From: Pseudomonadota bacterium
GTDB lineage: Bacteria > Desulfobacterota > Binatia > Binatales > Binataceae
DNA: 64,000 nucleotides
Direction of reading: 5' to 3'
Assembly (NCBI GenBank): GCA_021323945.1
Contig: JAJPKA010000018.1
Span: forward strand, 536,853-600,852
Shown here: piece by piece, positions 46,269 to 48,169 of the stretch
Position numbering within the stretch: the first letter of the stretch is position 1
Layout: every line of letters starts with the position of its first letter
The notes under the pieces: generated by a model
Databases searched by the model: none
What the model was told of the DNA's origin: nothing
Seen by the model: only the letters and a program-made list of their open reading frames with translations
Position numbers and translations under genes: made by a program

Positions 46269-46925
46269 ATGGAGCGCCGTCAGGTAGTTGCGTCGCTTGA
46301 TTCGTTGTGTCGGGAGATGAGTCTGTTAGAACATCCCTTCTACCAGGACTGGACGGCGGGGAGCCTCGCGCGCACGCGACTGCGCAACTATGCCGTGCAG
46401 TATTACCGTCAGGTCGAGGCTTTTCCACGCTATTTGAGCGCAATTCATTCGCGCTGCGAAGATTTGGCGATACGTCAAGCACTACTCGAGAACCTGATCG
46501 ACGAAGAGCGCGGCAACGAGAATCACCCCGAACTTTGGCTCAGGTTTGCTGAAGCGCTGGGTCTGGCGCGCCAAGAAGTGCTCGCGGCGGAACCCGAGCC
46601 AGCGGTCATCTCGCTCGTCGATACTTTCACCGCGCTCAGCCGAGAGGCGCCTCTCGAATCGGCACTGGCTGCTCTGTACGTTTACGAGGCGCAGGTTCGC
46701 GACGTCGCCGACGCAAAAATTGACGGTCTTCGTCGTTTTTACGGCATCACTGACGAATCTGGCCTGAAATTCTTCACCGTTCATCGCGAGGCCGATTCGT
46801 ATCACACCCAAGCCCTCGCCAGCATGATTCAACGATATTGCAATTCCGCCGAAGACGACTGCGCGATGCTCGAAGCAAGTCGCGCGGCACTTCAAGCGGT
46901 CTGGCGCTTCCTCGACGCCGTTTAA
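46269..46925 (+). CDS. CADD-family diiron protein, candidate p-aminobenzoate synthase
   Basis: 218 residues of the TenA/PqqC/CADD helical fold. The six diiron ligands known for Chlamydia CADD are present as Glu79, His86 (DEERGNENH), Glu140 (YVYEAQ), His172, Asp176 and His179 (VHREADSYH). The residues reported as sacrificial in CADD (Tyr27) and essential (Lys152) correspond to Tyr25 (HPFYQDW) and Lys150 (DAKIDGL): every one lies at an offset of exactly two. CADD makes p-aminobenzoate for folate by consuming its own tyrosine. ACAAGG lies seven bases before the ATG at 46269, preferred to TTG 46221. PqqC is an alternative, but no other pqq gene is present. The next gene is bioB. Confidence 0.88.
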   Translation: MERRQVVASLDSLCREMSLLEHPFYQDWTAGSLARTRLRNYAVQYYRQVEAFPRYLSAIHSRCEDLAIRQALLENLIDEERGNENHPELWLRFAEALGLARQEVLAAEPEPAVISLVDTFTALSREAPLESALAALYVYEAQVRDVADAKIDGLRRFYGITDESGLKFFTVHREADSYHTQALASMIQRYCNSAEDDCAMLEASRAALQAVWRFLDAV

Positions 46926-47161
46926 ACATTGATTGATTTTGACCTGAATCGGACGCAACTGTGCGCTTTGACGAGCGTGGCCACAGGATTGTTGTTAATA
47001 CTCGCTGCGAAACCCAGGGGGCTCATCGAAAAGCGCTGGTCATATGCCGCGGGACTTAGACTCGTTTGTCTGGGGCGCGAGGGAGAGTTGCACCAAGTGT
47101 AATCCATCTGGCCGGCTTCAAACTCGGCTCGCACATTCGATTTCGGTCTCGCGTAAAAACA

Positions 47162-48169
47162 ATGGACGCAATGAAATTCAAGGATCTGGACCTTGAGGAA
47201 GTAGTAAAGCGGGTACTTTCCGGTACGCAGCTGGATCGACCTGAGGCACTGGCGATTTTGAACTGCCCTGATGAGAACCTCGATGAGCTACTCGCGGCGA
47301 CTTTGAGAGTTCGTGAAGCGATGTTCGGGCGACGCGTCAAAATCTGCGTGTTGCGCAATGCCCAAAGCGGGATTTGCCCGGAGGATTGTGGCTATTGCTC
47401 GCAATCGCGTGTTTCGCGTGCGAACATTCCTGTCTATAGAATGCAAAGCGTCGCCGAATTGTGTCAAGGCGCGCGGAGTGCGGTCGAAAGCGGCGCCCAA
47501 CGCTACTGTATCGTCGCGAGCATGCGTGGACCCACCGATCGCGAGATTGCCCATCTGGCGAGCGCCTGCGAACAGATCCGGGTACGTTATCCGAAGCTCG
47601 AGCTATGTCTTTCGATCGGACTGCTCAATCTGGAGCAGGCGCGCCGGCTCAAGGACGCCGGAGCGGATTGGATCAATCATAATCTCAACACGAGCCGGCG
47701 GTTCTATCCACACATCTGCAGCACCCATACCTGGGACGACCGCGTGCGAACAATCGAAAACGTTCGCGCCGCGGACTTGCTGGTGTGTTCGGGCGGGATT
47801 GTTGGGATGGGGGAGAGTGACGACGATGTCGTCGATTTGGCCTACGCGACGCGCCAGCTCGGGGCCGAATCCGTGCCGGTCAATTTCCTGCACCCGATCC
47901 CGGGCACACCGCTGGGAGATTCGTCATTTCTGACACCCGAACGGTGCCTTAAGGCAGCCTGTCTGTTCCGAATGCTCAATCCACGCAGCGAGCTCCGAGC
48001 CGCCGGTGGGCGCGAACTGAACGTCGGCCTGCGCCAAGGCGAGCTGTTCAATGCGGTAAATTCCGTGTTTGTCAATGGTTATTTGACCACAGCGGGCTGG
48101 GCTTACGATCGCACCCGAGAGTTGATCGAACGGGCTGGCTTCGAGGTCGAACCCCCGCTGGCGCCCTAA
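47162..48169 (+). CDS. bioB: Biotin synthase BioB
   Basis: 335 residues. The radical-SAM cluster is ICPEDCGYCSQ (Cys72, Cys76, Cys79); further conserved pieces are CSGGIVGMGES, the NFLHPIPGTPL strand and AAGGREL (Arg of the Fe2S2 site). BioB inserts sulfur into dethiobiotin. No other bio genes are in the window. ATG 47162 is taken from the family N-terminus (MKFKDLDLEEVV); the longer frame to 47066 has no support. No obvious BirA-like operator was found upstream. It follows the CADD-like gene by 236 bases. Confidence 0.94.
   Translation: MDAMKFKDLDLEEVVKRVLSGTQLDRPEALAILNCPDENLDELLAATLRVREAMFGRRVKICVLRNAQSGICPEDCGYCSQSRVSRANIPVYRMQSVAELCQGARSAVESGAQRYCIVASMRGPTDREIAHLASACEQIRVRYPKLELCLSIGLLNLEQARRLKDAGADWINHNLNTSRRFYPHICSTHTWDDRVRTIENVRAADLLVCSGGIVGMGESDDDVVDLAYATRQLGAESVPVNFLHPIPGTPLGDSSFLTPERCLKAACLFRMLNPRSELRAAGGRELNVGLRQGELFNAVNSVFVNGYLTTAGWAYDRTRELIERAGFEVEPPLAP

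Follow-up and report, generated by a model that had tools for sequence, protein, structure and literature searches.

The window, by which we mean the whole stretch of 64,000 nucleotides analysed here, contains a gene whose product is very probably a CADD/NePabS-type self-sacrificing synthase of p-aminobenzoate (pABA), from which the host would obtain its pABA for folate; we put the probability of this reading at roughly 0.87. The encoded protein is a well-supported member of this known family, not a new kind of enzyme. It has the predicted fold and the key residues of the family, and its genome holds folP and no detectable pabB or pabC. From these observations, we infer the pABA-forming reaction itself, as well as its meeting the pABA need of the cell.

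The open reading frames of the window place the gene at 46269-46925 on the forward strand, where it encodes 218 residues. Relative to the closest relative, the first, second, and third codon positions differ at 41, 25, and 100 of the 218 codons, and therefore selection acts on the protein. A phmmer search of the PDB ranked the chain 9pj4, named "4-aminobenzoate synthase", first (8e-52), followed by CADD (3e-47) and PqqC (1e-15). Residues 9-193 of the query align with the CADD chain 1rcw without gaps, and each chain residue number equals the query residue number plus two. The metal ligands of CADD, which we take to be Glu81, His88, Glu142, His174, Asp178, and His181, agree with this alignment. 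The earlier note had claimed that the 218-residue protein carries the tyrosine, the lysine, and the six diiron ligands of CADD at a constant offset of two, and the ungapped alignment bears this out. The sacrificial residues of CADD are Tyr27 and Lys152 (PMC11965152). The features are as follows.

46269..46925, forward strand: CADD-type p-aminobenzoate synthase gene, stop included (TIGR04305, 261 bits against a cut-off of 200; best PDB matches 9pj4 and 1rcw)
46503..46505, forward strand: codon of Glu79, predicted metal ligand (aligned with CADD Glu81; invariant)
46524..46526, forward strand: codon of His86, predicted metal ligand (aligned with CADD His88; invariant)
46686..46688, forward strand: codon of Glu140, predicted metal ligand (aligned with CADD Glu142; invariant)
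46782..46784, forward strand: codon of His172, predicted metal ligand (aligned with CADD His174; invariant)
46794..46796, forward strand: codon of Asp176, predicted metal ligand (aligned with CADD Asp178; invariant)
46803..46805, forward strand: codon of His179, predicted metal ligand (aligned with CADD His181; invariant)
46341..46343, forward strand: codon of Tyr25, predicted sacrificial tyrosine, equivalent to CADD Tyr27 and NePabS Tyr25 (1rcw alignment; invariant; role from PMC11965152)
46716..46718, forward strand: codon of Lys150, predicted amino donor, equivalent to CADD Lys152 and NePabS Lys159 (1rcw alignment; invariant; role from PMC11965152)
46389..46391, forward strand: codon of Tyr41, counterpart of NePabS Tyr41, which is reported to be essential (invariant; role from PMC11965152)
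46401..46403, forward strand: codon of Tyr45, counterpart of NePabS Tyr45, possible radical relay residue (invariant; PMC11965152)
46536..46538, forward strand: codon of Trp90, counterpart of NePabS Trp99, possible radical relay residue (invariant; PMC11965152)
46683..46685, forward strand: codon of Tyr139, metal-selectivity position, equivalent to CADD Tyr141 and NePabS Phe148 (alignments; PMC11965152)
46770..46772, forward strand: codon of Phe168, metal-selectivity position, equivalent to CADD Tyr170 and NePabS Phe177 (alignments; PMC11965152)
47162..48169, forward strand: bioB, biotin synthase, a neighbour that we do not count as part of the system (TIGR00433, 359.5 bits against a cut-off of 225; start picked by eye, the longest open reading frame starting at 47066)

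By homology, the dimetal site formed by Glu79, His86, Glu140, His172, Asp176, and His179 would activate O2. The oxidising hole would then travel to Tyr25 through aromatic residues, for which Tyr139, Tyr41, Tyr45, and Trp90 are the candidates. The Cα-Cβ bond of Tyr25 would break and leave a glycine behind; the carboxylate oxygens of the pABA would come from O2 and its amino group from Lys150. Each protein molecule would thereby yield at most one pABA, which dihydropteroate synthase (DHPS), the product of the folP gene present in the genome, would join to the pterin.

The residues on which this mechanism depends are conserved throughout the CADD-type relatives compared. The scan of the genome collection yielded 15 loci, comprising six Binatia-like, four Marinimicrobia, two alphaproteobacterial (Rickettsiales and Paracaedibacteraceae), and three Acidobacteria loci. 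Matches above the CADD cut-off occur in 18 of the 145 genomes of the class sample and in 15 of the 41 genomes of the window's family. All 29 CADD-type rows left after the removal of duplicates (19 Binatia, nine others, and 9pj4) carry the six ligands together with Tyr25, Tyr41, and Lys150; CADD itself was compared through the phmmer alignment alone and stands outside this count, as does the protein of G146, in which the same residues were recognised by eye. Neither Tyr at position 25 nor Lys at position 150 is found in any of 18 other heme-oxygenase-like rows, a subset of the weaker CADD-model matches consisting of 14 rows of a group that we label HDO2 in this analysis and four rows from the window's genome. 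Same-contig duplicates, the weaker second match in L093, and L002 and L004, which fell short in the local search, were excluded from the row comparison. When the CADD-type sequences of the loci and the window were aligned (27 of 28 rows, all but L022), 34 columns proved invariant, which include the ligands, Tyr25, Lys150, Tyr41, Tyr45, and Trp90. One genome of another family, G056, has two CADD copies (on contigs C20 and C17; loci L091 and L069), both with the sacrificial residues, and an isochorismate synthase gene is located some 5.4 kb away from one of them. Some genomes of family f2 (e.g. G039, G084, and G135) have at least 19 CADD-model matches, none of which scored above the cut-off; a single chorismate-binding match is present in 19 of 25 f2 genomes.

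The host genome, an assembly of 22 contigs totalling 3.74 Mb with a completeness of 95.5%, was searched for the enzymes of the chorismate route. Its sole Chorismate_bind match is TrpE (564 bits against a cut-off of 517.7), whose gene neighbours resemble trpG and trpD by eye, and its sole Aminotran_4 match is IlvE (421 bits against 245.6). These two profile searches, which detected Chorismate_bind in 14 of 14 and Aminotran_4 in 13 of 14 control genomes, thus found neither pabB nor pabC, although either gene may have escaped detection in a genome of 95.5% completeness. One of the two Pterin_bind matches is DHPS (291 bits against 162.6); we take the other, in a 1213-residue frame, for MetH. The earlier note suggested that missing pab genes would support a CADD-type role, and for pabB and pabC the whole-genome result lends this support. 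No folate gene adjoins the CADD-type gene in the window. Elsewhere in this genome, two more heme-oxygenase-like genes lie close together (G000:C8:379103-381568; L104, 6077-8674). Their surroundings, which include HpaB-like and LigB-like genes and three genes for luciferase-like monooxygenases, are perhaps an aromatic degradation cluster.

Across the window's family, CADD was found in 15 of 41 genomes, an over-cut-off PabB in four, both in none, and neither in 22. In the class sample, 24 of the 145 genomes have PabB and none has CADD and PabB together, where PabB is counted at the curated TIGR00553 cut-off and some genomes just below it (about 310-328 bits) may also have PabB. The highest TIGR00553 score in any CADD genome is 309, from a frame of TrpE length in G136. 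One-sided Fisher tests of the exclusion, uncorrected for kinship, gave p values of 0.15 for the family and 0.03 for the class sample, and the exclusion is weak as statistics. Within genus g3, four genomes have PabB without CADD, G144 has CADD without PabB, and two have neither; the exclusion, especially inside this genus, fits a replacement of PabB by CADD. The g3 PabB proteins occur in long frames of 698-794 residues (G083:C73 in L065, G015, G023, and G031), and the N-terminal part of the G083 protein matches an amidotransferase model below its cut-off, so that it looks like a PabA-PabB fusion.

DHPS is present in 38 of the 41 family genomes, namely in 13 of 15 with CADD, in all four with PabB, and in 21 of 22 with neither; the two CADD genomes in which it was not found, G143 and G144, are both less than 90% complete. 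The 21 genomes with DHPS and without CADD or an over-cut-off PabB (G046, G059, G071, G089, G098, G102, G111, G113, G115, G117, G119, G121, G126, G128, G130, G132, G134, G137, G139, G141, and G145) include the other species of the window's genus, G145, at 91% completeness. With 22 of 41 genomes lacking both CADD and PabB and 21 of these holding DHPS, a missing pabB alone does not prove that CADD is needed, and these 21 genomes are the main fact against the simple reading. They also suggest that another supply of pABA may exist in the family. The window protein might accordingly be a CADD-family protein with minor or regulated pABA activity, in a cell whose main pABA comes from leakage of TrpE/TrpG to aminodeoxychorismate followed by IlvE acting as lyase, or from uptake; an enzyme of class-IV type that acts as aminodeoxychorismate lyase as well as transaminase is described for Mycobacterium (PMC8105722). 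We regard this explanation as improbable, since no genome searched combines an over-cut-off CADD with an over-cut-off PabB and since Tyr25 and Lys150 are invariant. To our knowledge, these two residues have no role outside the sacrificial reaction.

Second chorismate-binding enzymes were considered as a hidden PabB and rejected: of 15 such proteins scanned, 12 lie above the isochorismate synthase cut-off (those of G136, G109, G107, G015, G111, G098, G102, G056, G046, G117, G119, and G123), the exception being G089 (L081), whose second enzyme is TrpE-like, falls below every cut-off shown, and may be a divergent PabB. The remaining scanned enzymes are a PabB with an amidotransferase part in G083 and a TrpE of the fused type in G056. 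In G119, the isochorismate synthase match is the sole chorismate-binding match. Four family genomes combine CADD with a second chorismate-binding enzyme (G107, G109, G123, and G136), and this enzyme is above the isochorismate synthase cut-off in all four. Fragments of G115, G139, and G141 and further matches of G023, G031, and G083 were excluded from the scan. The PabB assignments of G015, G023, and G031 are based on TIGR00553 scores; the best matches of the other family genomes (287-309 bits to TIGR00553; 172 in G139) were called TrpE by score, and only that of the window's genome was scanned.

The HDO2 proteins, heme-oxygenase-like proteins of Binatia that score 115-141 bits to TIGR04305, below its cut-off, were likewise considered as self-sacrificing pABA synthases of the genomes without CADD or PabB. 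All 14 rows have the six metal ligands. None of them, however, has Tyr25 or Lys150; position 25 is always Trp and position 150 is Phe, Leu, Met, or His, and this role was rejected. CADD and HDO2, moreover, occur side by side in the genomes G107 and G144. The HDO2 loci are L041-L052, L101, and L102, among which L041-L046, L049, L101, and L102 come from the window's family; one HDO2 gene of G107 sits just before gyrB.

The superfamily also contains catalytic enzymes of the same fold, and the window protein could in principle be an ordinary heme-oxygenase-like diiron oxidase, acting in PqqC-like or other small-molecule chemistry, in which the tyrosine and the lysine are structural. Its Pfam matches, Haem_oxygenas_2 and TENA_THI-4, indicate the superfamily. 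The family models are more selective: the protein passes TIGR04305 (CADD) and fails the PqqC model TIGR02111 (68.7 bits against 240) and the TenA thiaminase II model TIGR04306 (19.3 bits against 130), and it reaches 46 bits against a cut-off of 500 with the NCBIfam BesC model. The claim of the earlier note that the protein is of CADD type is supported by these scores, together with the retention of the tyrosine and the lysine in every close orthologue compared. An AlphaFold model computed from the 27-sequence alignment has a mean pLDDT of 94.2 and a pTM of 0.90. In a Foldseek search with this predicted structure, ranks 1-4 are CADD structures (TM 0.92-0.94 by query; rmsd 1.1 Å), and PqqC structures, some with TM values up to about 0.9 by query, follow with rmsd values of 1.9-2.0 Å; 9pj4 is absent from the best 50 rows.

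In a first tree, which included PqqC and TenA (L002, put in by hand), PqqC, with a branch length of 7.2, sits among the CADD rows, and the TenA branch has a length of 7.7. Because so long a PqqC branch makes its placement unreliable, the tree was rebuilt without TenA and PqqC, whereupon the 30 CADD rows, including G146 and 9pj4, formed one clade with support of 97/98, and the branch of this clade was present in 96% of 200 bootstrap trees. CADD itself is absent from both trees, and the 9pj4 chain, maybe a close homologue, stands as the NePabS row. The tree check proposed earlier to separate the protein from PqqC and TenA had a mixed outcome: a single clade with 9pj4 was recovered in the reduced tree, and PqqC falls inside the CADD rows when it is included, so that the first tree taken alone does not establish a single CADD clade. 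The separation of the window protein from PqqC is based on the family scores and the residues and not on the first tree. The host genome, moreover, has its own PqqC (L001; 356 bits against 240) and its own TenA (L002; 160 bits against 130), and this true PqqC lacks five of the six ligands in an alignment of 22% identity. Considering also that Tyr25/Lys150 is confined to the CADD-type rows in the comparison above, an ordinary catalytic oxidase is very unlikely.

The gene next to the CADD-type gene was considered separately. Immediately downstream, in the same orientation and after a gap of about 236 bp, lies bioB, which is adjacent in five of the 14 family genomes tested (the window's genome G000, G009, G053, G094, and G105); the fifteenth CADD genome, G146, was left out for too little flank. 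It was not found near the CADD gene in the other nine (G038, G065, G077, G107, G109, G123, G136, G143, and G144), of which G143 and G144 have short flanks. All five bioB-adjacent rows fall in one six-row clade of the first tree, as expected of inherited neighbours. A scan of ten other neighbouring open reading frames of CADD-type genes revealed LolC- and LolD-like proteins (G038), two amidase-like proteins (G107), a CoA-transferase-like protein (G004, another family), and a MenA-like protein (L014, Marinimicrobia), and two frames without a match (G065 and G109). After the CADD-type gene of L018, which is the Rickettsiales locus, come a folK-folP gene and a gene for a putative folate gamma-glutamate ligase. 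The cofactor island with bioB proposed in the earlier note is therefore rejected as a general feature, and membership of the protein in one, for example as a biotin-related oxygenase, is extremely unlikely; none of the few further neighbours covered by the scan is related to biotin. The same note regarded a place beside bioB in a free-living-looking genome as unusual; a free-living host as such is not, given the origin of NePabS in Nitrosomonas and the naming of Chloroflexi and Sphingomonas among the holders (PMC11965152).

Among the closest known systems is NePabS (NE1434) of Nitrosomonas europaea. Its Tyr25, Lys159, Tyr41, Tyr45, and Trp99 all have counterparts in the window protein, its host is free-living, and NE1434, like the window gene, lies outside a folate gene cluster (PMC11965152); its neighbour is glyA, in contrast to bioB at the window gene. 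Our structural stand-in, 9pj4, shares about 44% identity with the window protein over the aligned stretch, with the same ligands, Tyr25, and lysine, and has a nine-residue insertion that the window protein lacks. The numbering of 9pj4 after its tag fits NePabS (Tyr25, Phe148, Lys159, and Phe177), and the chain contains the Lys159 peptide of PMC11965152, with Lys at one place where the printed peptide has Gln; it may be NePabS or a very close homologue. CADD (CT610) of Chlamydia trachomatis (PDB 1rcw, 8va9, and 8vag) is about 40% identical to the window protein, with an rmsd of 1.1 Å to the predicted model. In contrast to CADD, the window gene has no folate genes as neighbours in the window, and its host, judging by a genome of 3.7 Mb, is apparently no intracellular pathogen.

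Two metal-selectivity positions differ among these proteins. CADD (Tyr141 and Tyr170) uses Mn/Fe, and NePabS (Phe148 and Phe177) uses Fe/Fe; the F148Y variant of NePabS is cambialistic, being active with Fe/Fe or Mn/Fe, and its F177Y variant is switched to Mn/Fe (PMC11965152). The window protein has Tyr139 where NePabS has Phe148, and Phe168 where CADD has Tyr170, and thus presents the state of the NePabS F148Y variant. This Tyr/Phe hybrid occurs in 25 of the 29 rows (19 of 19 Binatia, 4 of 4 Marinimicrobia, and 2 of 2 alphaproteobacterial rows), a sample selected for its similarity to the window protein and hence biased towards that protein; the three Acidobacteria rows of loci L020-L022 are Tyr/Tyr, a state for which a preference for Mn/Fe is predicted, and 9pj4 is Phe/Phe. 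The state made as a variant in PMC11965152 is the commonest natural one in this sample. From the residue pair Tyr139/Phe168, the enzyme is predicted to be active with either Fe/Fe or Mn/Fe.

In the passages of PMC11965152 considered here, only two one-use enzymes of the CADD kind, those of C. trachomatis and N. europaea, are characterised. The organisms that Stone et al. name as carrying such an enzyme are Wolbachia, Rickettsia, Chloroflexi, Sphingomonas, and Nitrosomonas, in a sentence that does not include Binatota. In a review of the superfamily, CADD and NePabS are classed as self-sacrificial (PMC13108848). Among the literature matches listed for Binatota and pABA, one, PMC11264602, contains Binatota words without pABA words in its matched text, and the single paper found for Binatota and folate concerns heavy-metal soil. 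The Binatota CADD may have been noticed before, since annotation with nothing more than the NCBIfam model would give the gene the name "CADD family putative folate metabolism protein".

The CADD-type gene would explain folate synthesis in a host for which neither pabB nor pabC was detected. The survey around it also brings to light relatives that yielded no known gene for making pABA. It is conceivable, if rather speculative, that much of this Binatota family left the chorismate route, that some members took a CADD able to use Fe/Fe or Mn/Fe and suited to changing metals, and that the relatives with DHPS only use a third way to pABA. The host group (probably Binatia, Candidatus Binatota) adds a further branch of the one-use enzyme with a testable metal prediction, and through its hybrid Tyr139/Phe168 pair this branch offers a test in nature of the rule proposed for metal selection.
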